From contig CP099842.1 in the NCBI GenBank assembly GCA_030062745.1, positions 31,472,901-31,536,900 of the forward strand: 64,000 bases of DNA, written 5' to 3'. This document shows, in pieces, positions 9,201 to 62,039 of the stretch. This DNA is from Capitulum mitella. Taxonomy: Eukaryota > Arthropoda > Thecostraca > Pollicipedomorpha > Pollicipedidae. The translations under genes and the position numbers were made by a program. Under the pieces are notes generated by a model, which ran no database searches, was not told the origin of the DNA, and saw only the letters and a program-made list of their open reading frames with translations. Every line of letters starts with the position of its first letter. Position 1 is the stretch's first letter.

Positions 9201-12200
9201 TGCATCAGTATCTCTGCCTGCCGACAGATGGTAGCAAGGTCACGGTCAGGCGCCGACCGCGCCCGACGTGGTTCCACGCGCCAGCCACGTGCCAAAGGGG
9301 CACCAAGGAATAAAGACAGCAGTGCTGTTTCACGAGCCAAATTAGAAGCAGACGACCACTTCCCTTCCGTCCAGTCGCTGAATGTGGAACTAGTCGCGTC
9401 CCTGTCGGCACGGTTTGAACCGAAGCCACCTTTTCGGAGGGCACCGTCGCCCAGTTCTATCGCCCCCAACCGTGACGCTTGCCCGGGCGGCAATGGATGC
9501 CGTACAGCCGTACCTTGTCGCCCTTCTGGATGCAGCAGTTGGTGCCGATGTCCCTGCGGTAGTCCTCCGGATCGAAGTCGATGTCCTTGTACAGCGCGCG
9601 TTCCTGCGGTGTCAGCGGCGCCACCTGGTCGTAGATGCCGTCCACCAGGATCTTGCCGCGCGCGTCCACCAGCGTGTTCATCAGGTATATCAGGTCGGCC
9701 ATCGCCTCGTGACTGGCGGCACGGGTTATGGAGGTCAGCTGACGCACTGTGAAAAGGATCTAAGATGTGACTTTTGGTGCCTGACGCCCTCGCAAGAATT
9801 ACCAAATAAAATTTCATAGCGGCAAGTTGCGACAGGTTCAAATTTCAGGAGGAGCACACAGGAGAAACGTTGCACTGATAACCAGAATCATTTTTAAAGA
9901 ACCGGCAAACAGCTTTTTGAGCCCGGCCTTAACAGCTATAATACATGTACGAGAATGAACGATTTCATTCTTTCCAAGAAACGACTTCATGCTATGTCTT
10001 ATACGACAAAATGTCCCAAAAAGAAATTCGTCAGAGCCAGGGACCATACCCATCCCTGGATGTTCCGTCGCACTCGCCACGGCCGTCGACGCTTACACAG
10101 TGCCGCCGAAGATGCCGCTGTGAAGGTCCTGCTTGGCGCACTGCACCTCGATGAAGAAGTAGCAGACGCCGCGCAGGCCGTACGTGATGCACGGCTTCTC
10201 CTTGCCCAGCCAGTAGTTGTCCGAGATGCAGACGTAGTCGACGCCCTTGAGGAACTTGTCCTTCTCGGCGGCCAGCAGCTCGTCCAGGCCCTCCGAGCCG
10301 GACTCCTCCATGCCTTCAAACACGAACTGCGAAGGAGAACCTGTTACAGCACACGAAGAGCAGATTTCAACGTCGTCAGCGCCGGTGGGCAGCGGTCGAA
10401 ACCATGAACACGGCGGGACCGTGCTCCTCTGGGCTCTGGAGAAAAAGGAGCACCACGGACAACGCCGTCACAGTGGAGGGAGCACTCGTCGTCCCGCTGC
10501 ATCTGTAGTGCATGTGCTCCCGTAAGGACACCACAATGTTCGCGTACGGACACGACTGTCTTCACTTTAAATTTGCTTTACTTGAACAACATGCTTGTAC
10601 GGGCACCTGAAGCATACTGAGCAGAATATCTTACCTTTAATATGTATGCATTTTGGGCTGAGATAGCTATGTTGTAGCATATAATAATGAAAAACTTCCA
10701 GTATGAACCGTCTTAAAAATCCATATTTACGGACTTTCAAAAAAAAATTCCCGTGAACATCCTGTGCCCTGTCTATACGTACCCTTCCGTTTTGTCCTCT
10801 GATCTATCCTGCGAGACAATACGAGAGGGCAAACACCAATGAATGCAAAAAACTGGTCGTACTGCATATCATCAATGCGTGATGTCCATACCTAACTATG
10901 ATTCACTGCGTTTTTGACGATACCATGCATTCCTGAGAAAACGAAATGAGAGCCAAAAACGTGACCAACAACAGTTTTTTAGACCAGCCGAATCCATTCC
11001 TCAGAACAAACAAAGACGCCGTATTACTCGTCAACAGAACAGGTCAGGCAACAAGAATAGGTCAGAAGGTCTAGCGTTCAACATTGTCACATCCTAACTT
11101 AACTACACCGGAAGAACTAGTTACTCCGTCCCAAAAACTTGCCCCTCACTCGACAGCTGATTGTTCTTGACCCATGCTGGTGTCGTCAATTAACAACATC
11201 TAACCAAGGTAAGAGGCATTTCAACATTTTTTCTGCCAACAGTAACAGACAGTGGATCGCAATACGAAGATGAGACGCACAGCAGAAAAAAACACGTTAC
11301 CATGTAGGCTGTTCAAAATGCGGCACATTCCTTTCCGGATTTATGAACGACAGAACCCATCTGCTTCTTCCCTCTTCCCCCTTTCCCCTCCCACCGCAAC
11401 GATGTGCCACTCGTGCACGATTCGTGGCGGATCTCGGCAGTTAAGTCCAAACGCGGCGCGTCAGTCACCCATTTGTCTCTCAACTGGGGCTCACGGGCAC
11501 ACCGACCGCTTCCGATCACAGGCGCCCGGCACTTCACCCACCTTGATGTTGACTGGGATCTTCTGCTTGGTGGCCTGCAGGGCCTCGATGGCGTGCAGCC
11601 AGCAGAGCACGGGGCCCTTGTCGTCCGTGGCGCCGCGGCCGAACAGCTGACCGTCCTTCTCGATCAGCATGAACGGCTCCGTGTTCCAGCCGTCCTCGCG
11701 CTGCGCCGGCTGCACGTCCAGGTGGCCGTACACGCAGAGCGTGCGCAGCGACGGGTCGGCGCCCAGCTGGCCCAGCAGCACCGGCGGCAGCGGCAGCTTC
11801 TCGCCCGACGGCAGCTCCTGGGCAGCCGGGCGCTCCGGTCAGGGCCCGAGGGGCACGATCATGTGTACGGCACCACATGGAGCCGGCTCTACCAGTCCGC
11901 GGACATCAGCCCACTGCGTGAGCACAGTTTCACAGCCGGCGTAAGTGGCCTTCCAGCTGTTTGCACATTTTAATACTTCTATATTTTTTTACCCTATTTG
12001 TACTATTAAACCGCATCTATTTCATCATTCATTTTTTAAGCCAGCCCAGTTCAGTGAGTGCGAAGCGACAACTCCGCGGCCGGAGAAGGCGGCGACACGA
12101 CCGAACAGCGTCCCTCCTCCAGCCAGTCGGAATTCCGATCCTGCCGTCCCGACGGCCCGCTCCGAGCGGCACGCCGCCGCTCCCCCTCCCCCCCGGGGTG

Positions 12201-13803
12201 CAGGTTTCATCAGCCGACAGACCGCGCGGCGGCCGGAGCTCGCCGCCCGGTCCACTCCGCGCGAAGGCCGCTCTCCAGTGCGCCAGATAGCCGCCGCCGA
12301 CCGGCTCCTATCGCGCCGGCCCGGAGTGGCACGGCAGGCCGATAGCGCCGGGAGAGAGCGGCCTCCGGCGGAGAGACGACCGGTCGGCACGGATCACGCC
12401 CGACCGCACGGCCCGGACGGGAGACCACACCGACCGGACGGCGGCACCGCGATGATATTCTCTCGAGCTCACAGAGGTGCGGGGACAACCCCCCTCCTGA
12501 TGGCGACAATGAAATGATTTCTCCATCTAGTGTTGGTGTAACGTAACCGTCAGGAAAACGCATGGCACGATCTCCACGACCTCTACAATACAGGGGACAT
12601 TGTAAACGATTTGGTGCGCCCGGAGTGAACTGTACCCGTGCAAAGCTAAGTGCAATGTCCATCGCAGGAAAGCCGACGGTTACTTTGCCAAACGGGGATA
12701 GAAAGTGGGCCAGCTGTCCACGCCATGGAGAAAAGAAGAAACTTCAGCCCAAAGGTATGCTGTCATAACGCTACACGGCGGTGACAAAATGACTACATAA
12801 ACGTTCGTCAATTCAGGAAGGGAATGACATGATATCAGTATCTTGTGACCGGATACCATGCGGTACCACCATACCACCATACTCATGCATGAAACAAGAA
12901 TGTGGGGAGTCTTGCCAGATGAGCGATCTTACACTCGTACAATAACATAATTACTCTCTTCTCCTGGGAGCTTCTCGAACGATCCGAACAACCAATCCGG
13001 CCACTATGGTATCTAGCACCGTCATACATGGCTAAAAAACCTATATCAAGACAGAAGACGGTACACCCTGCGTCCTCTTTTTACGCATGACAAAAACACG
13101 TTCCAGCTCAAGAACAAAAACGGCGAACTCAGGTAGTTACCGGCCATTTTTGCTCTCCGCCAATGTGCGCTGGTAAAAACAAGCACCAGCCATTTTCATT
13201 TTCTGGTTTGGCGTTTCGCTGTATCATCCCCGCAGTCTCAAAGGCACCAGCCGTACATTTCGGAACAACGCCAGGCACAGTGGAAGTCTCGACAGGGCAA
13301 GCTAGCCATCAACACGATGTCCACTCCCCAAATAAACACAATGCATTTCACAATACACGACTGCTGGTTCGACTGGCTACACTGACTTGTGTGACATTGC
13401 AATGGCGTCGGAGTATCGTAAAAAGCCCGGGAGCCAATGACCGATTTGGAAGCAAGCTTTCATACAGAGTCAAATGTCAACGTGTATAAAGTCGTGCAAA
13501 AACGGCGACCGCGGTCCTCTTGCACGTTCCTCCCTGACGGATCCCCCCCCCCTCCCGGCACAGTCCATCCCCTCGGCCCCTGCCGCGGCGGAGAGCTGGC
13601 CCCTCAGCAGGGCCGCCAGACCGCTCACCTGTTGTCCGACATCGCGGTACTCGACCGAGGCGCCGAGCTTCTTGAGCCGGTCACCGACCCAGTGCACCAT
13701 GCGCACGATCTCCTGACGCGTCTCCGGCCAGGCCGAGACCGACTTGATCTCGACGGCCTGGCGCAGCAGGTCAACGTAGTGCGTCTGATGCTCGTCCACG
13801 TAC
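6247..13803 (-). CDS. CNDP2: Cytosolic non-specific dipeptidase (CNDP2-like, M20 family), eight exons, first exon missing
   Basis: Gene-level entry joining 13629-13803, 11542-11817, 10097-10326, 9514-9712, 8996-9217, 7936-8085, 7230-7331 and 6247-6297. All junctions have AG acceptors and GT donors in compatible phase, giving 467 residues that align end to end with animal CNDP2 from about its residue 10; the known protein is about 475 long. CNDP2 hydrolyses dipeptides such as Cys-Gly in the cytosol using two metal ions. Visible motifs in order: [15 protein letters not shown] (metal His and catalytic Asp), GATDDKGP (bridging Asp), [10 protein letters not shown] (catalytic and metal Glu), ISDNYWLG (metal Asp), DLHSG (His from the lid domain), [15 protein letters not shown] and DGAHSQNEK (last metal His). 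No catalytic residue is lost and no stop or frameshift is seen, so the gene looks functional. The start exon was not found; it should lie above 13.8 kb. Codon use is GC-rich. CNDP1 (carnosinase) is secreted and less similar, so CNDP2 is preferred. Confidence 0.94.
7230..7331 (-). CDS. CNDP2: CNDP2-like exon (residues 418-451)
   Basis: This exon is 102 bp with acceptor CTGCAG|GAG and donor GGGC|GTGAGT. It encodes [20 protein letters not shown], then [14 protein letters not shown]. The His of DGAHSQNEK is the last metal ligand. It is too broken up by flanking noncoding DNA to show as a clean open frame, and was found from the motif and splice sites. Confidence 0.93.
7936..8085 (-). CDS. CNDP2: CNDP2-like exon (residues 368-417)
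   Basis: This exon is 150 bp and phase 0, with acceptor CTCCAG|GCG and donor TTCCAG|GTAGGG. It encodes [19 protein letters not shown], then [20 protein letters not shown] and VTLTFQ. The REGGSIP stretch is a signature of this dipeptidase family. Confidence 0.95.
8996..9217 (-). CDS. CNDP2: CNDP2-like exon (residues 294-367)
   Basis: This exon is 222 bp and phase 0, with acceptor CGGCAG|GCA and donor ATGAAG|GTGCGC. It encodes [18 protein letters not shown], then [13 protein letters not shown], then [14 protein letters not shown] and SPNEMK, matching the lid domain that contributes substrate-binding residues across the dimer. Confidence 0.95.
9514..9712 (-). CDS. CNDP2: CNDP2-like exon (residues 227-293)
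   Basis: The acceptor is CCGCCAG|TCA and the donor is GACAAG|GTACGG. The first base completes Val, then [37 protein letters not shown] and CCIQKGDK. This is the start of the dimerisation (lid) domain. Confidence 0.94.
10097..10326 (-). CDS. CNDP2: CNDP2-like exon (residues 151-226, last codon split)
   Basis: The acceptor is TTCGCAG|TTC and the donor is ACTGT|GTAAGC. It encodes [17 protein letters not shown] with the paired Glu of the active site, then [13 protein letters not shown] with a metal Asp, then [18 protein letters not shown] and [10 protein letters not shown]. Two bases of a Val codon are completed by the next exon. Confidence 0.95.
11542..11817 (-). CDS. CNDP2: CNDP2-like exon (residues 59-150)
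   Basis: This exon is 276 bp, phase 0 at both ends, with acceptor GCCCAG|GAG and donor ATCAAG|GTGGGT. It encodes [12 protein letters not shown], then [10 protein letters not shown] with the first metal His and catalytic Asp, then [11 protein letters not shown] with the metal-bridging Asp, then KIPVNIK. These are the two most diagnostic M20 motifs. Confidence 0.95.
11818..13628 (-). other. CNDP2-like intron with a CpG-rich core
   Basis: Nothing coding is recognised. Bases 12.05-12.45 kb are strongly GC- and CpG-rich, which could be a CpG-rich regulatory island or simple composition drift. Other introns of the gene (10327-11541, 8086-8995, 7332-7935, 6298-7229) show no recognised element. Confidence 0.5.
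13629..13803 (-). CDS. CNDP2: CNDP2-like exon (residues 1-58 of the visible protein)
   Basis: The acceptor is CTCCAG just above 13803 and the donor is CAACAG|GTGAGC at 13629. The exon begins with one base completing a codon from a missing upstream exon. It encodes YVDEHQTHY, then [12 protein letters not shown], then [13 protein letters not shown], matching the N-terminal helix and first strand of M20 dipeptidases. Confidence 0.93.
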
Positions 13804-14314
13804 CTGGAGCACACGGGTGCCGCTCCTGAGCGCCACACAGAATGTGCCTGGCCGGTGAATCGCTTGCCTGTGTGCGACAGGCCTGTAACTGTTCCTTGCA
13901 ACCAAATGATTGGGTTATAAAACAGGCATTCCATAAAAAATATGTTTGGCTCATGCTTGAGAAACAAATTTTCTGCACACAGAGATCTCATCCGAGAATC
14001 CAAGCTGGATAATGTTGGGCTGTTTGATGCTATTGGATACTGTCATTGTTGAACCTGCTTTAGCTGCAAGAAAAATACATTCAATCTACAGAAAGGTTTC
14101 CACAAAAGCACTAACTAGAATTCAGCTTTCCAAACCAACTAAAGTAGCCAATGTCTACTATTATTAACCAATATATCAAACACAGCTGCAATTTCAATCT
14201 TCACTGTGAGCACAGAACTATGTGAAAGCTATATCAGCCCTTTCTCCACAGAGGCAGACAGAGACAGAAAATCTTATGGCTTCAGAGTGTTTAGATATAT
14301 ACTGACATATTTTC

Positions 14315-30370: not shown

Positions 30371-30877
30371 TCAGTCGTCATACGCCCCCGGCGCGGCTGG
30401 CGGGTCAACGGCGGAGAGACTGTCGATGCGTCCGAACTCGAGCTCGGAGCTCTCCTCCGGCAGGCGGGCCGGGCTGGCTGTGGAGCCGGTCGCCGCCAGG
30501 CTGCCGGCCTCCTCCAGCCGGGCGGTCAGCAGCTCCGGCTCGGCCGGCTCGCCCTCCAGCTCGCGCAGCGCCCGCAGCCGCTCCACCACGGCGCGGCCCA
30601 GCTGGTCGGCGCTGTCGAACTTGACCAGCTCCAGCTGCCGGCCGATCGCCGGCTTGCTCTGCAGGATCTCCTGCAGCTTCGGCAAGAACCGGCGCGCGAA
30701 CTCCTCGAAGTCGGCGTCGCTGAAGTCGACCTGCGCGTCCTCGACGGTCTGACCGGCCGTGCGCAGCGGCGAGGCCAGCTCCATGGCCAGACGGTACGGC
30801 CGGCCGTCCTGCACCACCTGGTACACCGACGTCTCGCCGTACTTGCGGCCGTTCACGGTGGCCGCGCTGCGCAGCGC
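30371..30877 (-). CDS. STING1: STING exon B: rest of the cyclic-dinucleotide-binding domain and C-terminal tail
   Basis: This is the terminal exon, 168 codons plus a TGA stop at 30371-30373. The acceptor is CTCTGCCCGCAG|GCG, preceded by a CTGAC branch-like motif. It encodes VNGRKYGETSVYQVV, YRLAMELASPLRT, DFEEFARRFLPKLQEIL and VVERLRALRELE, which align in order with the second half of the STING ligand-binding domain. The last ~58 residues hold many Glu, Ala, Ser and Pro, with no PLPLRT-type TBK1 motif and no L-x-I-S motif. Read alone the exon is hard to recognise; pairing it with exon A makes the assignment. Confidence 0.83.
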   Translation of the reverse strand, partial: ALRSAATVNGRKYGETSVYQVVQDGRPYRLAMELASPLRTAGQTVEDAQVDFSDADFEEFARRFLPKLQEILQSKPAIGRQLELVKFDSADQLGRAVVERLRALRELEGEPAEPELLTARLEEAGSLAATGSTASPARLPEESSELEFGRIDSLSAVDPPAAPGAYDD

Positions 30878-31785
30878 CTGCGGGCAGAGCGGACCGGGTC
30901 AGGGACGGACGACCGCCCGCTCGGGTTCCGGCGGCACGACCCTCGGTGGGCCGGTCATGCGGTGAGCTCAGACTTACAAAATACGGCAGTGGACGATTCG
31001 AGGCAGTCGAATTCGTGCTCTCGTTACGGCATGGTCGCTGGTCATCCTTGGACAGCGGGAAAAACACGAGCGAGGTTTTAACCTTGTCACACTCAGCATG
31101 TATAGCGCACCGCATACTCCACATCGCCGTTCACAATCAAACTACATGTCACGAAAACGGCTTTTGTGCCCCTGAAATACACGCTGCTGCGATCATGAAT
31201 GTTTATTTTCACCGAAAGACGATGGCACAGCGCATCGACATTTACATACAGACTGCATAAGCACTAGGGCTGGGAATTCGGATTCGAAAGATCCGAACAT
31301 TCGGATCCGGCGGTTGTTCAAATTCTGGTCTCAATATTCGAATATTCGGCGAATATTCGGTTGGCTATTTTTCCGTCCGAATCTTCTTCGGATATCCGAA
31401 TGTCAGCTGAATACTCTGGTCTTGTTTTGAATTTGATTACAAAATCTGGGAATCTATTCGCGCCAAACTGTGCAGAACCAAGCATGACACTAGCTGGGAT
31501 ACTCCCCAGCGTTTTTGCGGCTTCTGCAAACCCTGCGATGAACAGAAGTCCGCGGCAGTGTCGATGAAATACCCTCTTCGCCCTGGCACTAATTTGCGCC
31601 CAAATTTCGACTGATGCGTAGCCCTGCAAGTGACATCACGCCTTAGCCGTGTCTGGCCACGACTGGCAGAAAGCCCTGGTTGGGATTAGTCCGTGAATGG
31701 AGCTGGACGCTACCGGAAGGTAAATACCGGCCTGGTTACATCGTCTACTTTGCTGAATATACACATACACACGCACACATACACA

Positions 31786-31840
<55 letters not shown>

Positions 31841-34800
31841 CTATTTACACATGTTTGACTGAAAACGACCGCTAAAAAACGAACGCATTCACTAACTTTT
31901 GGATACATCGCTCGAAGTTTCTAGTTTTTGTCTTCACAGTATCATTCAGGTTACAAACTGTTCGTACAGAATCACTCACATGCTCGTCGATGTCTTAAAG
32001 TCCAACGTTTTGAGACCATATCTCATCGCTGCAGTAAACTAACTAGCACAAAATATCAGTTTTGAGTTTTTCAAGACAGAAGCTGCGCAACTACATCATT
32101 ATGGCACATTTTAGTACGGAGAGAGCAAATAATCCTGTGGTGATGCACACTAGGGGAGGAATGTGCGCCGGCAAGGGGGGCGGGGCACCGAGTACTTTCC
32201 AAGCCATTTCTTTTCATGCAATGCCATATGGCCAACGTTAAATTTCGCCAGTTAAGGGGGGACACGGTGCCCCGTGCACCCCCCCCCTTCCGCCGCCTAT
32301 GGTTATGCAGATATCGTTTGAATACGTTTCAAATACTTAGGCAATGGGAAAAAGTACTAACCACCAATATAATGAAACAGACACAGACGCAATCACAAAT
32401 AAAATCACATCAACAGTATTTCGAGCCCAACATCCAGTAACTCAAGGTTGCAGAAGAATTTGACTATTTCCTTAAGGCTGGGGACGATTCATTGATGAAT
32501 ATACTTCTCCATATCAGGAGGCATTTTCTGTCGTTGCATGTCCGAGATGTCAGTGTCGTCGGTCAGCTGCTATCGCGTTAATGTCCTGTCATGTTCGTGT
32601 CGCATGTGCTCCGTTGGTGCCCCGTCGCCTAAATGCAATGTCAGACGTGAGAGTGTCGTGGTTACACCAGTGTGGTGTATCGAAGTTTGCAGCCTCCGAG
32701 ATTACATTTGAATTGCTGTGCTATATCGGTGCACATTAGTATGTCGCGTTTGTCAGAGCTATTTGTCTCGGGAATGTCAGGAGATTATTCTGTTGCGACA
32801 GTACATGATAACGTCTATTTTGCGTTCGTTCTTGTCTTTTACGTGTCGAGAGATTTATCGCATAGAGATTACGTATCCCGTACAGCTGTTTCATTTCGTT
32901 TTCATACAGAAAATGGCATCTGATTTTGATAGAGCATTCGAATGTTTGGACGTTTGTCTTTCTTGGTTCATTGTCAAGGTGCCTTGTCATATGTCGTTGT
33001 GTTTAGCTTTCAACGTCAGAATCTGAGAAAAAACATTGTTCACCAAGATCTGTCTGATTCCTACTTCCTAATTCTGAATGCAGTCCTGTTCAGTCAGAAC
33101 AATGTTTAAATGCACGAGTGAGAAACGAACGTATAACGCTAATCTTGTAGCGTCCAGGACATACACTGTCAGCGTTTCAGCACCGCCCTTTGTTAGTTTT
33201 ATCTGCTGCCTTTATGTAGGCGATATCTTTCTGCATTTGAGAAATAAAGAGCAACTAGAGCGCCTGACAGAGCGAGACATATTTGAACAACGGTCTGACT
33301 TCAAATCCACAAAAGAGCTATGTGATGAAAATGTAATCCCTTTTATTGACGTGACTGTTGATGGATACGGACACCGATATACAAAGACTGTGTACCGTAA
33401 AAAGACCAACAATGGACGATGCTTAAACGCTGACAGTGAATGTCCTGGCCGCTACAAGATTATTGTTAAAAGGCCATCCTCAGACGTGTATTTAAACATT
33501 GTTCTGACTGGACAGGACCATAACCAGAACTGGGACGGATCAGACAGATCTTGGTGAACTGGGTTTTTCAAACTCTGACGTTGACGGCGAAATACAGCGA
33601 CATCTGCCTACAATCGAGACGAAAAGGCTTCACGGGAAATCATCTCTCGATACGTAAAAGGCTACGACGACTGAAAAGTAGACGTTATCGTTTTGTTTCG
33701 GTAATGCATCATGAGCTCAAGTTCGTTGTCTCTTGCCCTACTGTCACGTGTCTGCGTACTATATCTTTTATCACTTTTTCGTCCGTTTTGTACGCTGGTA
33801 TCACCTGATTTCTCTAAAACACTGATTACGTTCTTGTTGTCCGTGCCAGTCTTCTTATGTACCAGTGTCCATGTATGGTCTGATTTCTTTCCCAACCGTC
33901 GCGTCTGTGTAGCCGTTCCTCACTAGTTTGTTTTAGTCTGTCGAGTTCGGAGTCAAGCAACAGCCAGTTGGAGCAGTTACGGAGAGCACGTCGGATGAAG
34001 GCCTTAGCGACGATGACCTTATACCGTCGCTATAAGGTCATCTGTTCCGGGCACTCACTGTCGGCGGACATACACCGACCTTCATCAGTCGCCTTTCGAT
34101 ACAGTGTCGTTCGGCATGAGCCATCGCGTACATCAATGTTCACATCAAGAAAAGGAATCACATTGCCCTGACTCATTTCGTATGTAAACATGACGCTTTT
34201 TCGAAGTCCGCCTGACGCGTCTTTAATTGACTTTCGTCGCAAACTTCAACAAAAATGTCATCAACGTAACGGCAGTACACGTCAGGTTTGTCAGACTTAA
34301 TGTCACGAATTACTTCTGCCTCGACACTGCCCATGTAGTATGACGCGTGTCGAGGACCCGGTGGAGAGCTCACATATACTCAGTCGATCTGGCGGTAGAG
34401 CTGGCCACCGGGACAGCACAACAACGTCTCAGTGGTACAGGCCGAAACAGCATCTTTAATTACTGATCGCGATAGCTTATGACGCGGAAGACTGGAATGG
34501 TTGTGCGCACGCTCAAAGATGTACTCAGTCGTCTCCTGAGCAGGTACTCTCCGTAATGTTACATTCCGACAGTGTTCCCAAATTCAACCAGTTCGGTGTC
34601 AAGGATGTAGATGTTCACTCATGCTACTGGATTCCCCTGTTGTTAGGCTTCCTTGCAGCTGCAACGTTCCTTATCTTGTCAGAGATCGTCAATCAGCACT
34701 GAGCAGAGGACGCTGCCAAACCGGTGTCTAACTGTCCCAGGCAACACAAATCGGACGGGCAGGTCTTGATGCGCGAGGGATGCAAAGGTCAGTGGAGACG

Positions 34801-37800
34801 CAGCCAATTAACAGAGGAGGCGATTCAGAACCACGGCAGGAACAAGTCTGATAACTTAAATTTCAATCTACATCCTTGTTATCTAACTGACTGAATTTGA
34901 ACACAACGTGAAGGAAAAGGGCCCTTGAGCCTGAAGCCACTGACACAGACTTTTTGACAGTCCTGGGCCCTTTTGAAAACTCACGAACGCTTTGGTTAGC
35001 TCATGGGACTTAAGGATCAAGAAGCCCTGTTGACAATCCAAAAGCATTTGGATCTCTCCGGACTCTATTTGGTCGTTGACCTCACTACTGGGTTGCCTCT
35101 AACGCGGGTGTGGCAATAGAGATCTGTTTTACACGCGCAAAACTCGTCGAAAAAGGACCTCTAAAGTCAGGAGGAAGGGAGGCATTTCCCCGGCACCTCT
35201 TGATAACGTCTTTGGTAGGGCACTGCTAATGATGAAAGAGATTTTTAGGGGAATTAAAGGAAAACGTCTGCCGATCTCATTAAAACATGAATGGAAGGTA
35301 ATTGTCAGCTCACCAAATTTCAATCATGTCCCCTCGAATTTACTGATCGCCTCACTGTTTTGCTAAAACCTCAATGTTTTCCCCATACGTTCACCGAAAC
35401 TGCTGATCCCTGTTCTTTTTTCTCTTATTCGTTACGTCCTCCATGAAGCATATTCTAACAGCTTTGAATTGATATGTGGCATGCTTTCACATGCTGGTGT
35501 AAAAATTGTGGGATACTTTTAGTTATGACGTGGCACACTGATCTAGCAGCTGTGCCCCTCGCGTCCAGTAATGACAGCGTTAGTGGATTGGGCAGGGAAC
35601 AGGAAGGGAAAGCTGTTTTTGTGTCTCGGAAAAGTCTGATACCCATCAGTAGCGATTTGGTACCGTTTGGATTTTACTGTTTCCACATAGCATTTAAAGT
35701 GAAAATTCTAATACCAGCCAGCAGTGGCGGTATCATGTATCAGGCACCAGATCAACATTTTCGAGTGCTTTTCCTGCACCACCATCCGGATGATGTTTAA
35801 TTTTTCCAGGCCAGGGGACAACAATCCCTGCTACTCCTCCTCTCCGAATGGTGCCGCCGATGCAGGACAAAATATCATGTGGCGGAATATCGAATGGAAA
35901 ATATCAAAAGCAAGACATCAAACGTACAGCATCGAACAAGATAAATGTCGACAAGTATAACAGGAGACATGTTAAATGACAAAAATGTCCATCCGGGATG
36001 AATATCGGAAGAGTAAAATATCCACCATGCAAAACATGCGATGGCGAAATAATGAACTCCAAATACGGGACAAAAACGAGTAGGTTAAACATTAACATGT
36101 TTTGTGCCAAAACAATGAATGAAAAATGTGATGAATGGATTAAAAACGAGCCAGGTAATTACTGTAGAGTAAAATGACAAACGCATGGTCAAATTCTGAT
36201 AGAGCAGTCAAAGTCGTGCGGCAGTACTGCTTGTCCCAGAAAAAGGCACCTAACCTAACCTTACCTGACCTGACCTGACCTCATCTGACCTGACCTGAAT
36301 GGCCTGACATAACCTAATCTGACCTGGCTCCTACGTTAGGCCAATTTCTACGCCTAAGGGAAGCCGATTAGTATGTCTATGGCAAACCGATTACTACACC
36401 TAAAGTAAACCGATTACTTTGCCTACAGCAAACCGGTTCCTATCCTGCGGCAAACCGAGGAAGTGGCCTTAAATGCCCACTCCTGTACCACGCCCTTCGA
36501 TATTTATGGCGATGTTTTGCTATTCGATCTTTCACAGTTTCTCTGCTAATCCTGGTCAATACGTCTGTCCCTCGGTATTTTTTGCACGTTGGTTTTCAGT
36601 AAGATATTCTGTCCGAAGATATTTCCCCATTTCCATATATATTCACATTCTATATTTACGGGAAGCTGCGCCATGGACGCCACCCTACCTAATTGCGCCA
36701 CCCTATTTCATGGCACATTTCAGTGCAAGTTTGGAATAATTTTCTGACTTGTGCTACCTGTGTATACCTGTGTTGTTAATACCGTGACGCAACACTTCCT
36801 CTACAGTGCCTCCGTTGTGGAATTACGCTTCCCATTTAAGCAGAATACGGATGATACGTTTGGGCGTTTTTTAACCGCGGCTATTTCTGTTGCGCCATTC
36901 GTCAACCTTTCCGCCATTTGTCGAGCCTCATTGCACCAGTAGGACAATCGGTACAGGACTAGCTAACGGTGTGCGGATGGCTGATCCAGTGTTTCGCACG
37001 TTTCTGGGACCCAATTAAAGCGATAATCACGGGGGGAGGTGGGATTTCGGCTGCAGATGGGACACCTTGAGAGTAAGGCAGAAACGTCGCCAGAACTTTC
37101 TTGGAAGGGCTGCAGCCCTTAGCCCTCTCCCCCCTCGCGGAGCCCGTTCAGCCCCGCCGTCTGCTGGCCGGGGAAACCAGTGTAAAACACCATTTTTCTC
37201 ATTCAACACGAAATCAGCGCCCCAAGTCTCGCAGGCAGCCCCCAGGCCGAGAGTCCTAGCGACACCCTAGGAACGACCTCCTATCAATCTCGCTGGTAAA
37301 TGTGTTTCAGATTTTAGCCAATTCATTCAGAGGGGGTGGCTCGCCGCTGGCCACACTCACTGTGCCCTAAGGAAACAGGTGACCTCGCTGTGCCCTTCTC
37401 CATCGATTAACTTCGTAGCCAGTGCAGGAATCTGTTCCCTAACTGACACGTTAAAATGGACCCTGAAGGACACCCTTTCCACCCTTCTGCACCCTTCTCA
37501 CTTCCTAAACCCCTTTTGATTCCGGTGACCTTACTTCGACGTTTAGGGAGAAACAGTACTATTCCATTTTCGGGTTTAAGAAGAAAACATTTTCGGATGA
37601 CAAGAGGGGCATGGACCCTATCCCCAATGGGTGCGCCTATGCAGCCACCTCCATGCGATGCCCAGCATGTCGTCGGGATCTGGGCACTTCTCCCAACCTG
37701 TTTGCAAGTATCAGCAAAAAAATAAAAGTGAGACTTCTCTGGTGGCGCAATTATGCACATCATGTGGCACAAACATGGCGCGGTTTCTTTAATTGCGCCT

Positions 37801-39219
37801 TTTCCAGCATCTTGCTAGAAACTGAATAACAAATAGTAGGCCAGTTATCAGTCATCTTAGCGCGGCCGGTCGATATTTTGCTCTCGACAATTTTCTATTC
37901 GGCATTCGGCCATATAATATTTTGTTTAAACCGGCATTTCTCCTGACGCGATCGCGCTGATACCGATACCGAATACTAATTCTGGTGATCAAATGAGCAA
38001 TTTTGGTGCGTGAATGGGAGGCTTGATCTATGTCTGTCAACACGCTGGATCCAGAAGGGGTGAGGCATGAGCAGAAACGGTGATGGGAGTAGTAAACGCG
38101 GTGATCGATAAATTCGGTGAGGGAAGAAGTAAATTCGGTAAGGTCTGACCAGAATCCGGTGGGACAAAGAATTACTCTCAATATAAATAAGGAGCCAGGA
38201 CTTCATCCATTCATGGGAGCATGGAGGAAATTATGGGAAAATGTGTGAACGAGACGGGATTTCCTCTAATTCACACCTTTCATGTTCTGAGTTATTCTTT
38301 GGCTCGCCCTACCAGAGCGCATGACCTTCTTGCAGGCGCGCAGTTCGGATTTCGCCAGGAAGGGAGCCAGGACAAACGTAGCTCTCTCAAAACTGAAAAC
38401 CCTCGGATTTCGACCATTTTACTTTCCTATTCCGGACGTGTTTGTTTCCATTTTTCATGTGTAAGGGAACGCTGATTTTTTACCCCAAGGGAAGGGCCAA
38501 GTCCCCTTGCCCCCTTTCTTAGCAACGCCCCTGGCCGCTTCCACGCACGACATTGTCGTCTCGCCTACGGACACAGCCTTCAGCATGCTTACCCGCTCCT
38601 TCGTGACGCTGGCGTCGTTCTCATGGAAGTCCTTCTCAGAAAGCATAGCGGCGCGGCGCATCGGCACCAGGATGAACATGCGCCGGCAGTAGGTGTACCG
38701 CTCGCTCTCTCCACGGATCTGGTTGCTTGATATGTAATCGCGCATACGCTTCTCGAAGGGCAGGCCATGCTCGCCGAAGATGATCTCCAGGTAGCCGAGG
38801 AAGAAGATCCAGGCGGCGCCCTCGCTGTAGCTGGTCTTGGTCACGCGCAGTGCGTCCATGAGCTCGGCGCGAGGCGTGCCGCCCAGCTGGGAGGCCAGCG
38901 CCAGCATGGGCGCCGTCAGGGCCAGGTACCAGTGCTCGGCTACCAGCCACAGCGTGGCCGGGCTCACCAGGCACAGTACGACGACGGCCGCCACCATGGC
39001 CAGAGACATCAGCACGGGGCGGCTGCGGTAGCGGCCGGTCACGTGGGCAGGCCAGCCGAGCCGCCAGTCCTGGTAGACCTCTTGCAGCGCGCGGCCGACA
39101 CTTACGCTCAGCACGCTCAGGCAGAAAAGCGTGGCCAAGTCCCAGGCATCGTACGTGAACAGGTAGGCGGCGAACACGACCGTCGGTAGCGCCAGTGTCA
39201 GCCCCTGCCGTGGGTCCAT
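30371..39219 (-). CDS. STING1: STING (stimulator of interferon genes), two coding exons across a 7.7 kb intron
   Basis: Gene-level entry joining 38593-39219 and 30371-30877, both phase 0, for 377 residues; vertebrate STING is about 379. STING is an ER membrane dimer that binds cyclic dinucleotides and signals to TBK1, NF-kB or autophagy. Four hydrophobic segments lie near residues 6-23, 27-43, 69-95 and 97-112. The binding domain follows: EGAAWIFFLGYLEII (residues 133-147; Trp137 and Tyr143 match human Trp161 and Tyr167), MFILVP, then across the junction GRKYGETSVYQV (Arg220 and Tyr222 match human Arg238 and Tyr240), AMELASPLRT (Glu242, Ser245 and Pro246 match Glu260, Thr263 and Pro264) and FLPKLQEIL. 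The spacing between domain halves fits known STINGs within a few residues. The tail after about residue 318 is acidic and Ser/Ala/Pro-rich. I chose the ATG at 39217-39219 because its context is strong and the length fits; the frame stays open back to a possible acceptor at 39321, so an upstream start is possible. Confidence 0.85.
31788..31837 (+). repeat. (TA)n microsatellite
   Basis: About 50 bases of alternating TA, preceded by a CACACATACACA stretch, inside the STING intron. Confidence 0.95.
32150..32305 (+). repeat. Dispersed repeat with GGGGCACCG ends
   Basis: The left part GGGGGGCGGGGCACCGAGTA and the right part GACACGGTGCCCCGTG are inverted. Between them are TTTCTTTTCATGCAATGCC and TTAAATTTCGCCAGTTAAGG. 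Related pieces occur at 2.6, 16.8, 41.4, 43.5, 46.9 and 51.3 kb. Confidence 0.65.
33160..33560 (+). mobile_element. Penelope-like retroelement fragment (reverse transcriptase), plus-strand copy
   Basis: One open frame encodes LYVGDIFLHL, then ENVIPFIDVTVDG, then KTVYRKKTNNGRCLNADSE and CPGRYK. This order (YxDDIF, PFLDV, YRKPT, N..S.HP) is typical of Penelope-like elements. The catalytic YVDD is YVGD at 33213-33224, so this copy cannot be active. It is a fragment with no visible upstream or endonuclease domain. Confidence 0.78.
33660..34700 (-). mobile_element. Penelope-like retroelement fragment (reverse transcriptase), minus-strand copy with frameshifts
   Basis: Reading down the minus strand across several frames: ETTEYIFERAHNHSSLP, then GGQLYRQID, SSPPGPRHASYYMGSVEAE, DVYCRYVDDIFVEV (YVDD at 34257-34268), GNVIPFLDVNIDV and LYRKATDEGRCMSADSECP. 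This matches the fingers and palm of Penelope-like reverse transcriptases. At least one frameshift separates the YVDD and PFLDV parts, and a stop interrupts the RQID...GSP region. The start above 34.58 kb and the end below 34.0 kb are approximate. It points toward the plus-strand copy, so the two are convergent. Confidence 0.78.
38593..39219 (-). CDS. STING1: STING exon A: four membrane segments and start of the ligand-binding domain
   Basis: This exon gives 209 residues from the chosen ATG. The donor is GAGCGG|GTAAGC at 38593, a near-consensus site, after which the open frame reads on into unrelated sequence down to 38455. The segment ARG/hydrophobic alternation, the EGAAWIFFLGYLEII block and YCRRMFILVP place it as the N-terminal half of STING. 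Position 139 is Phe where human STING has Tyr163. Coding may begin further upstream, since the frame is open to a CAG acceptor at 39321-39323. Confidence 0.86.
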
Positions 39220-39415
39220 CACCGACGGCCAGACGCCGCTCCGCGCCGAGAACCCAGCGCCACTCAGCGACGACAGCGAGAACTCAGCGCCGGGAACCGT
39301 GCCGGACACCCCACACCGCTCTGCGACACAGACAGAACCAAAAGTGGTTACTCCCGAGCAAGGTCAGAATTTCACTTTTGCGACCTGGGGCTGATGAGAA
39401 CAAAATGAGAAAATC

Positions 39416-41397: not shown

Positions 41398-41515
41398 CAG
41401 ACTGTGTCCCGGCAACGGGGGGAGGGGACAGCGGCTACTTTTCGAGTCATTTCTTTCCATGCAACGCCATAAGGTTAGTGTAAAATTCCGCCAGTTAAGC
41501 GAGGGACCGGAGTAC
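41398..41515 (+). repeat. Dispersed repeat, same family as 32.15 kb
   Basis: TCATTTCTTTCCATGCAACG, CCATAAGGTTAGTGTAAA and TTCCGCCAGTTAAGCG occur in the same order as at 32.2 kb. Confidence 0.6.
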
Positions 41516-41573
41516 TCTAGGAGCAGGTCTCCCACTTCTCAGAACTGCAGAAATCCGCGTAGTTACCAAACTA

Positions 41574-43151
41574 TATTGGTGTCTAACGACGCGCAATTAA
41601 AAACATAGCCCACTTACATGCATTCAGTGCCTTGCCACCATCCCAACTCCCTCACAAGAATCTCTTGCAGTAACTCAGCCACATATCGCCTCAAGGCCTC
41701 AACAACTAGCACGGGTTCCAAGCACGGAGCATCCCTGCAAGACAGATCAACACCATCTTTTTGGCGTTGACCGTTGACAAACGTGCCGTGAAATATGACG
41801 TCACTGAAAGACTTATCAAAACGTGGCCGTCTCGAAACCCGAAATTTGCTGAGACGGTGTTGAAACGGGACAGGGGGTGGACTGGGACTGAACAATGACA
41901 GACATGAGTGCCTGGGAAGAAGCAGGGAAAGACCAGGGAAACTGGGACAGTCATAGAGGACCTGCATGAGGTTAGGAGAGAGATGAGGACCAACGGAACG
42001 GGCATGGAAGGGTATTAGGACAAAATGGTAAAAAGGGACTGGGCTTGGAAAGGAACAAGCAAGAGGGTGGGGCTATCAATTGCGGTTTGAATGAGTCGAA
42101 TCGTGCGGTTGATTCTCGAGATACACAGGGCCGGGGTGTTTAAGACCCCCAGTCTGTGGAAGGTGATGAAATGCCCCAATAAATGCCGGGGTAAAGTTGT
42201 CTTGCAACATCCCATCACTGCGCCAATCCCGTGATTCAGTCCGTATTTGTTTTTATCCCTTCATTGTACCCCGCTTTTGCCTCCCCCCCTCCAGGTCTCC
42301 TCCCGCAGGGGAACGGTATGGAATAGGACTGAGGAAGAAGGACTGTAAAGATTGTCCCATCCCGGTCTACTCCTTGTCCCTGTCCCGCTGCAGTTCTCCT
42401 TCCTCAGTCCTATTCCACATTGTTTCCCAGCGGGACGGGAACGGGAGGAAGAGAGGCAGAAAGAGCAAACAAGGATCATGGAACAAGAGCAAATACGGAC
42501 TGAAGGGGGAGTGACGTAATGATGGAACACTAGACAAGACCGTGAACCAGGCAGTGACAGGGATATTTCATCACCTTCCACAGACTGGGGGCCTTAAACA
42601 CCCCGGCCCTGTTTATTTCCAGAACCAACCGCACGATTCGACTCATTCAAACCACAATTGATAGCCCCATCCTCTTGCTTGTCCCTTTCCAAGCCCCGTC
42701 TCTTCTTACCATTTTGTCCTGATACCCTTCCATGCCCGTTCCTTTAGTCCTCATCTCTCTCCTAATCTCATGCAGGTCCTCTATATCTCTGTATAGTCCC
42801 AGTTTTCCTAGTCTGTCCCTGCTCCTTCCCAGGCACTCATGTCTATCATTGTTCAGTCACAGTCCACCCCTCTGTCCTGTTTCAACACCGTCTCAGCTTA
42901 TTTCGGGTTTCGAGACGGCCACGTTTTGATAAGCGTTTCAGTGACGTCATATTTCAAGGCACGTTTGTCAACGGTCAACGCCAAAAAGATGGTGTTGATC
43001 TGTCTCGCAGAGATGCTCCGTGCTTCGAACTTGTGCTTGTTCAGGCCGTCGTTGGCTGAAGCGATTCAAGAGATTATTTTCAGGCAACTGTGATGGAAGC
43101 AAGGCCTGCAATTGAGCTATTTTTTAGCTGCGCACCTTTTGCTACCAATAT
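41574..43151. mobile_element. Foldback element: long palindrome with ~770-bp arms
   Basis: The sequence from about 41574 to 42346 recurs as its reverse complement from about 42395 to 43151. Matching blocks include GTTGACCGTTGACAAACG with its complement at 42968, TGGAAGGTGATGAAAT with its complement at 42567, and GGAATAGGACTGAGGAAG with its complement near 42400. The outer ends are TATTGGT and ACCAATA, followed by GCGCA..TAAAAA. The unpaired centre is about 45 bases. Short open frames in both arms are mirror images and not genes. The arms have diverged, so they are not a cloning or assembly hairpin. Confidence 0.82.
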
Positions 43152-43210
43152 GGCTTAATAACTGTGCGGATTTCTGGAGTCCTGAGAAATGGAAGGCCTG
43201 GTCCTAGAGT

Positions 43211-51776: not shown

Positions 51777-53409
51777 CTAGGGTGTGTTCGCGGCGTGCGC
51801 AGAACATTCTATTCTGCGTGACGTCACGTGGAATCTTTCCCGCACCTCTTCGCAGCGTGCCGGTTTTTTTTACCAGTGTGTCACGCTGATGAAAATAACT
51901 GCGCATGCACATCACTGTGTTTGGCTAACAGTAAGTTTCTGCCCGACGAAATCGCAAACAACGCTTTGTATAATTGCCACCAATGTAAAGAATGTATCAT
52001 CCTGTTTCTAACCGTACTTTCCACTACTTGATTTTCTAAACAATAACAACAAAATCGTAACGATAACATACGACTCAGTAATACCGTGCTGCAGTCGACT
52101 GGCGGAGAACAACATTATTCCGCGGCGGAAAATGTAGTGCCGCCAAGGTTAAGGTTATTGACATCAAGGACGTGTAGATCCTGCATGCATCTTCAAGCGA
52201 TTAATGACGTCATATATAGGAAAATTCTATTCTGTTGCCAAAAACTGAACTTGGAAAAACTGCTGTATTATTACGCCGTTATATTATTGTATTAGATAAT
52301 TGTTGGGATGTCTGATATCAGTATTATTACATTATGACATTTAATACTCGTTAGATTAGGTTGCTAGGTTGGGTTGTGCTGGGCTAGGTTAGATAAGGTT
52401 AGGTTAGGTTAGGTTAGGTTAGGTTAGGTTAGGCTAGGCTAGGCTAGGTTAGGTTAGGTTAGGTTAGGTTAGGTTAGGTTAGGTTAGGTTACTATGTTAG
52501 GCTAGGGTAAATTTTTATTTATTGTTTTATTTCACTTCCTAATATTTTCCAGTTTTGTTCCGTGATTTCTTGTGCTGGGCTACGTTAGGTTAGGTTAGGT
52601 TAGGTTAGGTTAAGTTAAGCCAGGCTAGGCTAGGTTAGGTTAGGTTAGGTTAGGTTAGGTTTGGTTACTATGTTAGGCTAGGGTAAATTTTTATTTATTG
52701 TTTTATTTCACTTTCTAATATTTTCCAGTTTTGTTCCGTGATTTTATTTTAGATATTTTATTTCACTGCTTTTTGTTTTTTTGTATTTTTCAAATTGGAA
52801 CTACGCTTTGCCATCTTTGTAATATTTTTACTTTTTTATTATTCTTGTTTATTATTATTATTATTATTACCGTTATTATTACTATTATTATTACTATTAT
52901 TATTTTTACAACCGTTAACTTCTTTATTTTAAAGATAATTTATATCGCATTAGTTATCCCCCAAAACTTTTTTATTACTCTTGATTGGACCTTGAGTCCG
53001 ACCGACGACCAATCAGCGTCGAGATCTCACGTAAACAAACTATTTAACGCAGACACGTCAAAAATCCCTACGCGAGCGTCTGGCGGTTAGCATACGAGTG
53101 ACGACGCAATCTGTTTCGGGGGAAATAATGTGTGTTTCAGGTTTTTCCGGCTGAAATCGTAAGTAATACTTATCAATATTGCGTTTGAAACGCCATGCAA
53201 CCACTACTACGATTATTTTCCCTGGAAGTAAGCGCTCGGGCTGAATCTTACTGTTGACCCCCCTTTTGGTTCCTGTTTTACCTGACGGGTCCCTTCACAC
53301 ATTGGCCACGTCGCCCTCACAATGACACATTAACCCATTAGTCCCATTAACAGATTAACCCATTACTGTCACGTAGATTCCACGTCGTCCGGGTCGCTGC
53401 GAGCACACC
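51777..53409. mobile_element. TIR element, family A, copy 2 (1.6 kb), carrying TTAGG arrays
   Basis: The left end GGGTGTGTTCGCGGCG is followed by TTCTGCGTGACGTCACGTGG. The right end is TCGCTGCGAGCACACC. Internal blocks TTGGCCACGTCGC and ACAGATTAACCCATTA are shared with copy 1, proving family membership. The 3-bp flanks are CTA and GTA. It contains about 1 kb absent from copy 1, including the TTAGG repeats and an ATT-rich stretch. Confidence 0.65.
52375..52745 (+). repeat. Interstitial TTAGG telomere-like arrays within a duplicated unit
   Basis: Two runs of GGTTA (about 52385-52490 and 52585-52663) include some GGCTA variants. Both are followed by the same sequence ACTATGTTAGGCTAGGGT and an AT-rich stretch ending TTTGTTCCGTGAT. 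The unit period is 176 bp measured between the shared flanks. TTAGG is the ancestral arthropod telomere repeat. Confidence 0.88.
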
Positions 53410-56310: not shown

Positions 56311-56442
56311 TGTATATAGAAGATAGGAAGATAAATTGGTACATCACTTTATGCCTTATTCTGTACTTTTTGCCTGTATTTTATCTGTTGCAGCCGTTTC
56401 TTTCGTTATTTTTGTCCAATGGCCTTTAAAACAGGCAGAAAA

Positions 56443-56508
56443 TATTGGAGGGGCCCAAACCAACATTGGAGGGGTCCAAATCAACATTGGAGGGGCCAGG
56501 GCCCCTTC
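56443..56508 (+). repeat. Short tandem repeat, CAACATTGGAGGGGCC, three units
   Basis: Three ~20-22 bp units immediately precede the 5' truncation point of the LINE. A similar CTGAACATTGGGGGGC motif occurs near 27.30 kb. Confidence 0.7.
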
Positions 56509-56539
56509 GGAAAGAATATAAATCGACACTCCTGTCCTC

Positions 56540-58920
56540 ATCCGACGCGTAACGTAGTGGACCTGACTGTAACCAATGAAACCGGTCTCATTAACTCGGC
56601 CAGGGTCCTAACCGAGCCCATTGCTGACCACCAGCCAGTCTTGTTATGTGCTGCGGTCCCGAGAGAGCGGCGGCGGCCATCCACGTTTACCGGACGACCA
56701 TGGAGACGTGTTGACTGGGATGCCCTTTCGCTGGACCTGTTCGTTAGCACCGTTGATGAGAAGGTCTCTTCGTTCACAAAGATCTGGAACGAGACAGTCT
56801 ACAGACACTGTCCACTCATCACGGTGACCTCGCGTAGATCGAGCTGCCCGTGGCTACGACACATTCCAGAAGTGACAACTGCGATGGAATAAAGAACTGA
56901 AGCCCGGAAGACCTGGGAGCGTCAGCGTACCCCTGAGTCCCGCCGCGCGTATCAGCAGTGCCGGAACCGCGTCAAAAGCCTGTTTGCAGCCGCGCGACGC
57001 TCGTTCCTGTGCGATGGCCTTCTGAATGATGGGCGAAGATTCTGGGACCGCCTCAAACGGTTCGGCCTACAGCCCGCCCAGAAGCCAACCGATGTTGACA
57101 CAGCCGACAGAAAGGACGGCTTGAACGCGCATTTCGCTGCTGTAGGCCCCCCGATCGCGGCCGAGGCAGCGGCAGTGCCTGCCGGGACGGTGGCGTCACC
57201 TGCCGTGCCTCGACCCCACCGTGTCTGTGCGGCAACACTCACCCTTCGCCCGATGACGCTGCTGGAGCTATCGGCGGCTGTCGCGCGCCTAAGTCGGACC
57301 AAGGCTGTTGGCACTGACGGCATTTCTTTGTTTGCCTTGAAGAAATGTTTTTTTTTTTGTCATCGGGCCACACATTCTGACCACGGTTAATTGCTCGATC
57401 ACAACTCGAACTTTTCCTGATGCCTGGAAAATTGCCCGAGTCACACCAGTGTACAAGTCAGGCGACAGATCCGATCTCTACAACTATCGACTCATTTCTG
57501 CCTTACCAGTAATGACAAAAATTACTGAAAAATTCGTGTGCACCCGACTGTTTGCGTACTTACTTAGTAACCATGTACTATCACCGTTTCAGTATGCCTA
57601 CCGACCCAGTCACTGTACGGAGGACACCGTGCTTGACGCGGTCATATGGTCAGCGAAGATCATTGATGTCGGTCATGTCGTGTCTCTTACAACAACTGAC
57701 CTGATCAAGGCCTTCAACAGTTGATCACGGCACCCTTCTGAACAAGCTCGAGTGGTACAGTGTTGAGTCGGACTGGTTCGCCAGTTACCTGAGTGGCCGG
57801 AGACAGGTCGCTGGTGGCTCGGCTACCTTACCCTTGTCCCGTGGGGTGGCCCAGGGATCCATCGTTGGCCCAGTCCTATTTCTAATCTTTATGTACGATC
57901 TACCCAGTTTTCTTCCTTATGGCCGACTCCTTTCCCATGCTGACGACACCCATCTTCTCGACCACGCCTCACCCGACACCCACAGTCTATCATGTCTCAG
58001 GACCCGAATCGAGGATTCCATCTCGTTCCATCTTCAAGACTGGTTTCGGCCCAGCAGTCTAAAAATAAACCCAGGAAAAACGGACTTCATGCTCGTTGGC
58101 ACCAGAGTCTCCATAAGATAGACGAAAAATTTTCACATGGACGTTTCGGGTTCTGTTCTGATTCTAAAAAAAAGTCTGTGAAGGTACTTGGTGTAATCAT
58201 CTACCGACATCTTACTTGGGAAGAGCACATATCCACCATTGTTCGGCGTCGTAATAACATCCTTGTCTCACTATTCACAACTCGTTTCTACTTCACTCCC
58301 GACGTCATGAAGCTCCTCGTCCACTCCCACGTCTTCCCTCACATCCTTTACTGTATCACTGAGTGGGGAGGAGCCGCCGGTTTCCAGCTGAGCAGAGTGC
58401 GACAGGTGATGAACTTTGCTGCCAGGTTGGTGACCGGGGCGCGACGCGGGGACCACATTACCCCGACTCTGGAAGCCTTGGGGTGGAGTCGTGTGGAGTC
58501 CCTGGTCAGAACGCGTGACCTCCTGAAGGTCTACAATGCTTTGCGCTCCCACACGTGCCCGTCCACTGTACGTACTCTATTCCCCATGCGTGCCCAGGTC
58601 TGCTGCCGCCGCACCCGTGCGGTTGCTGTTGGCATAGGTGTCATACATTTTTCTCGCGTGCGGCTGGCGGCGACCTAGCGGCTCTTTTTCTACCGAACCT
58701 CAGTGGCCTAGAACCGCCGGCCTCCGGCAGCCTCGAATGTCACCCCGCGGGCTTCGTTTTTAAAACATTTGGAATATCTGACACTGTGAATACCGTTTGT
58801 GTTCAAATGAGGGCGTTTTGCTTCACCTGACAAGTGACTGTGTATCATCGTTTTTGTAATGTTGACGAGAGGGCACAATAGCCATTGCGAGGACGCCTTC
58901 AATACATACATACATTTGTA
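56540..58920 (+). mobile_element. 5'-truncated, decayed CR1/L2-like non-LTR retrotransposon
   Basis: The 5' part encodes the end of an apurinic endonuclease (VLTEPIADHQPVLL). It is followed by a linker and the reverse transcriptase in changing frames: KAVGTDGIS, VYKSGDRSDLYNYR, PFQYAYRP, DLIKAFNS, SRGVAQGSIVGPVLF and HADD in place of YADD (57936-57947), then INPGKTDFML. The thumb region ends with AARLVTGARRGDHITP. Frame changes occur near 56.9, 57.35 (after a long T run), 57.72 and 58.0 kb, so it is dead. The 3' end has ACATACATAC repeats near 58.90 kb, as expected for a LINE tail. The clade call rests on the ARLVTG...LEALGW block. Confidence 0.85.
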
Positions 58921-60984: not shown

Positions 60985-61780
60985 TCTTCAGTCAAGGTCC
61001 AGATAGTAGTTACGTACGACGACATACGGACATGTTTCAGCTTCTCGTTCGATGTAGCTGCTGTGGGCCTCGATGACGGCCTCCACACGACCTCGAAAGG
61101 AGCGGCAGATGTTGACGATGTAGGTCTCATCCATTCCGTCGAAGGCCTCCGCGATCTGAGCATTGAGGGACTCCTGGCCGGGATGAGACATTCCTTGGAT
61201 TCCTTCCAGCAAAACGCTCCTCATGGAGTAATCCAGCGTGTTAAGGTCTGGGCACTGAGAGATCACGTCTCCTACCGTCAGAAATGTGGCTCCCAGTTCC
61301 TCCGTCAGCTTCTGCTTCGTGACATCGGCGATGTGTGCGGTTGTCCCGTCCTCTTGGAACACAAAATTGCCATCCGGGTAAGTCTCTCTGATCCTGGGGA
61401 TAACCTCCGTATCCAACAGACACTCGTACATCTTCTTGAAGATCTTCTCGTTGGCGTCCAAGAAGATGATGGGGCACTTTTGCCGTCAGAATCGACCACG
61501 CCGAGGACCATAACCTTCTGTGGATGCTTGTTGACTGGGTTAAATCGAAATCTGAGGTTAACTTCATCCACAGGGCTAGGTCATACAGGTATCTGAAATT
61601 GTTCCTGCTCAGCTGGGCGTCCACGTGGAACAGCTTCTCCTCGGAAGAGATCCTGATAAAGTTTGACGTCCTCTTGTCCTTCCCGACGTTAAGGAGGCGT
61701 TTGCTTCTTTTCAAATGACTCAGACGGGCTGCCTCGGTCAAATGGGGTTTGTCCTGGATCATCCTGGACCTCATTTGCAT
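60985..61780 (-). mobile_element. Decayed mariner-type (Tc1/mariner superfamily) transposase
   Basis: Three frames join to one transposase: RISSEEKLFHVDAQLSRNN, then PQKVMVLGVVDSDGKSAP, then IFKKMYECLLDTEVIPRI, DGNFVFQEDGTTAH and CPDLNTLDYSMRSVL. Frameshifts lie near 61.57 and 61.47 kb. The second catalytic Asp (QEDG, 61348-61350) and the third (LDY, 61231-61233) are separated by 38 residues. The usual first Asp (SDEK) reads SEEK here. The N-terminal DNA-binding domain is absent or unrecognisable, and terminal inverted repeats were not found. Confidence 0.8.
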
Positions 61781-62039
61781 ATCCTCCGCACTTTTTGGCT
61801 CGTTGTGCGGGCGTCCCCTTTACGCCACGGGAAAAACGGTTCAAACATCTCTTAAACCCGATCCCCATTAAATGCCGAATACGGGGAGTTCTCCTTTTGT
61901 TTTGATTGATTGAGGGAGGGCCTTTTTAAATCTTTAGCAACCATCAGCCTCTAGGCGCCCCCCCCCCCCTCCCCCTACGCATTGCTCAGCCACTCCTCGA
62001 GGACACGCCGCGCCTTACATGTAAGCGCTGTCGTTCAGA

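Follow-up and report, generated by a model that had tools for sequence, protein, structure and literature searches.

A predicted two-exon STING gene in Capitulum mitella and further STING loci in the same genome

Organization of the locus

The stretch of DNA analysed in our study (the window; 64,000 nucleotides of Capitulum mitella, C4:31472901-31536900) contains on its minus strand two coding exons separated by a long intron (Table 1), which, judging from the sequence, very probably make up a protein-coding gene for STING (TMEM173), an innate immune receptor that is widespread among animals. Exon A encodes N-terminal hydrophobic (membrane) segments and the beginning of the ligand-binding domain (LBD) of STING, exon B the remainder of this domain, a tail of about 60 residues and the stop codon. 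Both exon lengths are multiples of three, and joining them in phase 0 results in a protein of 377 residues. The donor reads CGG/GTAAGC and the acceptor CTCTGCCCGCAG/GCG (slashes mark the exon boundaries). The GC content amounts to 0.657 in exon A and 0.730 in exon B compared to 0.464 in the intron, with GC3 values of 0.88 and 0.95 for the two exons, respectively. A first-pass annotation of this DNA had described a split STING gene; its exon coordinates, frames, phase 0 junction and length of 377 residues were all reproduced, and the motifs it had named were found in the exons to which it had assigned them (AWIFFLGYLEII in exon A, GRKYGETSVYQV and MELASPLRT in exon B).

Table 1. Features of the STING gene in the window (window positions) and of the STING loci on other contigs (contig positions)
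Feature	Position	Strand	Description
Coding exon A	38593..39219	-	start Met, residues 1-209, 627 bases
Coding exon B	30371..30877	-	residues 210-377, 507 bases including stop TGA
Intron	30878..38592	-	7,715 bp, GT-AG, phase 0, GC 0.464, some repeats
Donor read-through	38455..38592	-	45 extra codons, then stop; 254-residue frame if the intron were retained
Candidate 3' splice site, upstream non-coding exon	39321..39336	-	seen by eye; TCTGTCTGTGTCGCAG/AG
STING domain, L001	C15:8911458-8911949		one open frame without stops
STING domain, L002	C11:1943080-1943610		one open frame without stops
STING domain, L003	C8:29410123-29410674		one open frame without stops
Tandem STING frame on C15	L001 1384-2661 = C15:8911341-8912618		425 residues, ATG directly after an in-frame stop

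Identity of the encoded protein

The joined protein matched the Pfam profile STING_LBD (PF15009) with an E-value of 1.9e-23 and a score of 83.2 bits (cut-off 27), and the assignment to the TMEM173 family is thereby confirmed at profile level. Taken separately, exon A scored 28.4 bits and covered positions 2-50 of the profile, while exon B scored 49.2 bits and covered positions 76-168; the score of the joined protein exceeds the sum of both (77.6 bits). Since the two profile ranges are complementary, the exons represent parts of one domain. The earlier view that neither exon is obvious on its own did not hold: both clear the Pfam cut-off by themselves, exon A only just, and each is therefore visible to a profile search.

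Among PDB sequences, the joined protein matched 78 distinct entries at E<=1, the best 60 of which were all STING or STING fusions, with 4yp1 at the top (1.2e-12). With exon B alone, 64 distinct PDB entries were matched at E<=0.01 (the best 60 of these 64 all being STING), and exon A alone matched none at this threshold. Protein searches were carried out with the whole protein, a two-row profile and the LBD region (7997, 7996 and 311 candidates scored, respectively), and the sole relative returned by these searches was Tmem173 of Amphibalanus amphitrite (P0001, 391 aa), which shows 42% identity over 88% of the joined protein. The alignment is colinear, running from Met 1 through the junction into the tail. 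Both proteins have a similar N-terminal layout. Four N-terminal transmembrane helices are characteristic of STING; the hydropathy of the window protein exhibits three N-terminal peaks above a simple threshold (residues 7-25, 27-45 and 68-86) and no fourth one exceeding it, that of Tmem173 four. The tail of Tmem173, in contrast, is longer and bears repeats. An AlphaFold model of Tmem173, for which pieces of the two window exons served as alignment rows, was too poor to use for judging the V-shaped dimer fold of STING (mean pLDDT 39.6, pTM 0.24). The reading as an invertebrate STING, put forward in the first-pass annotation, is thus upheld by the profile match, by the colinear barnacle relative and by the top-ranked junction against that relative described below.

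Splice junction and alternative gene models

For the choice of the junction, 17 GT and 44 AG sites, giving 748 pairs in both open frames, were combined and each product was aligned to Tmem173. The junction 38593/30877 ranked first of the 748 pairs with a score of 523, followed by 515 for the next one. Against the mouse STING domain it ranked fourth of 748 (158, tied with the fifth), and the acceptor at 30841 in combination with the same donor scored higher (164). The latter result would fit a STING gene using another acceptor, e.g. 30841 or 30866, by which the lid region would be altered by at most 12 residues. With Tmem173 as reference the order is reversed (523 for 30877 versus 492 for 30841, same donor), and 30877 is preceded by the more pyrimidine-rich stretch, CTCTGCCCGCAG, so that we regard a different acceptor as improbable. 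The donor at 38593 is well supported; the acceptor at 30877 rests mainly on the barnacle relative, because the mouse STING domain ranks this junction only fourth.

As 45 codons beyond the donor can be read without a stop, the functional product might also be the 254-residue read-through ending at 38455, i.e. a truncated STING without most of the sensor domain. The additional codons, however, contribute no STING similarity (28.3 bits compared to 28.4 bits for exon A), whereas exon B has an intact frame with pocket residues, shows a GC3 of 0.95 and is recognizable as STING even when searched alone, which makes such a truncated product very unlikely. A tblastn search of the window with Tmem173 at E<=10 returned the two exons and one chance match (E 4.9); thus, no competing 3' exon is visible in the window. 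The two-exon model with the junction 38593/30877 is likely right, and the window gene is an ordinary new member of the STING family.

Intron content and neighbouring features

The intron had been described as filled with transposons. Repeats are indeed present, but transposon coding was not confirmed, the best reverse transcriptase match (E 0.027) failing to reach the cut-off. In a self-comparison of the window, 4 of 31 self-match rows of at least 60 bp touch the intron. The repeats comprise an inverted pair (33402-33606 with 33200-32988, 77%), three self-match rows near 32148-32297 shared with other places in the window, a stretch of (TA)24 (31789-31836) and short tandem arrays (36248-36326 and 36344-36458). 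Reverse transcriptase-like frames were noted by eye, and the open reading frames of the intron may be Penelope-like, to judge from their appearance. Pfam searches were performed with 10 open reading frames of the window at E<=0.01 and with a second, partly overlapping set of 10 at E<=10. In the first set, an M20 peptidase was matched once and a reverse transcriptase once, the latter below the cut-off, and the second set gave only matches below the cut-off; three open reading frames of the intron had no Pfam match at E<=0.01.

Outside the STING gene, several other features were observed. A 1.7-kb stretch at 41514-43210, which shares 79.5% identity with its own reverse complement, forms a foldback-type element just upstream of the gene. 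LINE-like reverse transcriptase frames lie on the plus strand at 56335-58675 (RVT_1 at 57341-57721 with 28.2 bits, the cut-off being 29.6), and a minus-strand stretch at 60991-61819 looks by eye like a mariner-type transposase and had no Pfam match. The minus strand also carries, at about 7900-13900 (outer limits set by eye), exons of a CNDP2-like cytosolic non-specific dipeptidase. The exon at 10096-10467 matches PDB 2zof (4.8e-40) and that at 11494-11838 matches Pfam Peptidase_M20; for three frames of this region, Pfam returned nothing at E<=0.01. Interstitial TTAGG-type repeats (TAGGT/GTTAG), which we take to be of the arthropod telomere type, are present at 52385-52744 in a 176-bp unit of 1.9 copies, and a minisatellite with a 38-bp unit (12.4 copies) at 4387-4845. 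A tRNA scan and Rfam at gathering thresholds found no match in the window.

Further STING loci in the genome

The PF15009 profile was also searched against the 477-Mb assembly of 16 contigs. Five matches were found, all above the cut-off: the two window exons and three further loci on C15, C11 and C8 (Table 1). The same profile gave no match in 14 control genomes, a result of little weight. A protein search with the C15 frame returned the frame itself, C11 and exon B of the window and missed C8; the sensitivity is thus limited and the four loci have to be taken as a lower bound. The C11 protein comprises 363 residues from its likely start and the C8 protein 300 residues, both with hydrophobic N-terminal segments in frame with the LBD. 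Of the four loci, the window copy alone has an LBD interrupted by an intron. This intron may have been gained in the window copy, or alternatively the other loci may have arisen as retrocopies.

The LBDs of the four loci are only distantly related, with identities of 19-36%; the first domain of C15 and C11 share 36%, C11 and C8 30%. The window LBD is 49% identical to that of Tmem173, which shares 18-19% with the other three loci. Several STING genes in one animal are also found in the coral Stylophora pistillata (PMC9980059). The seven STINGs reported there have domain identities of 54-75% and a uniform layout, whereas the four loci of our genome differ much more strongly (19-36%) and one of them carries two domains.

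Ligand-binding pocket and C-terminal tail

The pocket was compared in an alignment of seven LBDs (mouse, window, Tmem173, both domains of C15, C11 and C8). Compared to vertebrate STING (e.g. 4yp1), the window LBD is 26% identical and retains the residues corresponding to G166, Y167, R238, Y240, E260, P264 and T267. In window numbering, G142, Y143, R220, Y222, E242 and T249 match human G166, Y167, R238, Y240, E260 and T267. The residues at human positions G166, Y167 and R238 do not vary among the seven domains. Position Y240 is occupied by Tyr or Phe throughout, and E260 by Glu in six domains and by Asp in C8; none of the six non-mouse domains has retained R232. Unlike vertebrate STING, the window protein has Ile at the S162 position and Ser at the T263 position and lacks R232. 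Tmem173 differs from the window protein by Thr (window Ser) at T263, Phe (window Tyr) at Y240 and Ser (window Thr) at T267. The aromatic stacking pair (Y143, Y222) and the lid arginine (R220) of STING are therefore present in the window protein, and these are termed universal in STING in PMC9980059.

With regard to ligand preference, two floor positions of the pocket deserve attention. We take human T263 to be equivalent to the Thr/Ser floor position of the coral study cited in the next sentence. In that study, floor positions including human S162 and a Thr/Ser position are linked to ligand linkage, and in coral STING3 the Ser at the Thr/Ser floor position is tied to 3'3'-linked ligands (PMC9980059). 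By analogy, the Ser at the T263 position is a weak hint that the window STING might accept 3'3'-linked ligands. Against this speak the Ile at the S162 position, which has no precedent in the material compared, and the Thr that Tmem173 keeps at T263.

The C-terminal tail of vertebrate STING carries pLxIS and PLPLR[ST]D-like motifs. A motif search for L.IS, P.PLR[ST] and PLR[ST] after residue 300 found none of them in the window protein or in Tmem173; the L.IS or PLR[ST] tail motif is thus a further difference from vertebrate STING. The two tails have the motif PEESSE in common (window residues 349-354) and are otherwise divergent; a shared stretch of this length occurred in 8 of 2000 shuffles of both tails. 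The tail of vertebrate STING evolved in vertebrates, and the signalling mode of invertebrate STING is called unclear, according to PMC8592570. For the window protein, a mode of action can be outlined as follows. The N-terminal helices would be placed in an inner membrane, two copies would pair via their LBDs, and the cleft could bind a cyclic dinucleotide from a cGAS-like enzyme or from bacteria. Closure of the lid and rotation might then lead to assembly and to signalling without the vertebrate C-terminal tail.

With three further STING loci in the same genome, the window gene could also be a decayed or inactive copy, but its intact exons, canonical splice sites and conserved pocket core, and the fact that it is the copy closest to barnacle Tmem173 (49% over the LBD versus 18-19%), render this highly improbable.

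A predicted tandem-domain STING copy

The protein encoded on C15 contains two STING_LBD stretches with 96.5 bits in all (Pfam). The codon-position GC of its frame (0.793, 0.548 and 0.932) follows the same pattern as in the window exons. Its top 19-residue hydropathy of 1.37 lies below the values of the four other proteins (1.97-2.57, the value of 1.97 belonging to a peak of C11 that falls in the LBD, with 1.93 for its best N-terminal peak), and no strongly hydrophobic segment is present. An upstream membrane exon was searched for by tblastn with the N-termini of the other copies, which gave only matches with E 1.2 or worse in 8.5 kb of DNA, 7.8 kb of them upstream. A hydropathy scan of plus-strand frames of at least 70 codons found one frame with two peaks, which by eye is not STING-like. 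Shorter or more distant exons would escape these scans.

Y167, R238, Y240 and E260 are conserved unchanged in both domains of the C15 protein. In its first domain, however, T263 and P264 are replaced by Ala and Ser, respectively, and one half of a shared pocket would therefore be altered. The protein ends with CCIL, a CaaX-like C-terminus for which the chance is 0.2-0.8% given its own composition. A 31-bp near-repeat flanks the stop codon, so that the CCIL end may have arisen incidentally through a small duplication. Alternatively, prenylation of this end may hold the C15 protein at the membrane.

By pairwise score, the first domain of C15 is nearest to C11 and the second one to the window gene, and the two halves may thus stem from different STING lineages. 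In the alignment of all seven LBDs, however, the second domain shares 24% identity with the window LBD and 23% with the first domain of C15. A tree of the 7 domains was weak, with no starred branch. Grouping of both halves together was not rejected (p-AU 0.173), and an internal duplication is therefore possible, too.

STING acts as a homodimer around one ligand, as stated in PMC9980059, and the tandem protein could therefore be a single-chain dimer. From these sequence features we tentatively propose that the genome harbours at least four divergent STING loci, of which C15 would encode a single-chain STING whose two LBDs form an internal, asymmetric dimer for one ligand, with a CCIL end that is perhaps prenylated and with halves perhaps derived from different lineages. 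We consider this proposal as a whole plausible, while stopping short of calling it probable.

Significance of the STING set

The window gene is a further STING similar to barnacle Tmem173. Among crustaceans, the function of STING in shrimp has been described (PMC12928593). Searches of the open-access literature for tandem, duplicated, multi-copy or crustacean STING gave only work on bacterial STING and on non-nucleotide STING agonists, and a paper on barnacle STING was not found among the matches listed there, which is no proof of absence. According to PMC9980059, most animals encode a single STING, and for a crustacean to have four loci with domain identities of only 19-36% would therefore be unusual.

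If the reading of the C15 copy is true, nature would have produced a tandem-domain STING that unites the known homodimer in a single chain and is useful for understanding how asymmetric ligands are read. An origin of its halves from different lineages, if true, would furthermore be a hint that STING heterodimers exist. It is this divergent set with its tandem copy, rather than the window gene, that is of wider interest, and both deserve a study of their own.

The surfaces to which barnacle larvae attach bear bacterial films. In mussel larvae, the response to bacterial c-di-GMP is reported to involve STING (PMC11190208). Considering both the bacterial films met by barnacle larvae and this response in mussels, a non-immune role of STING in barnacles would be worth testing.
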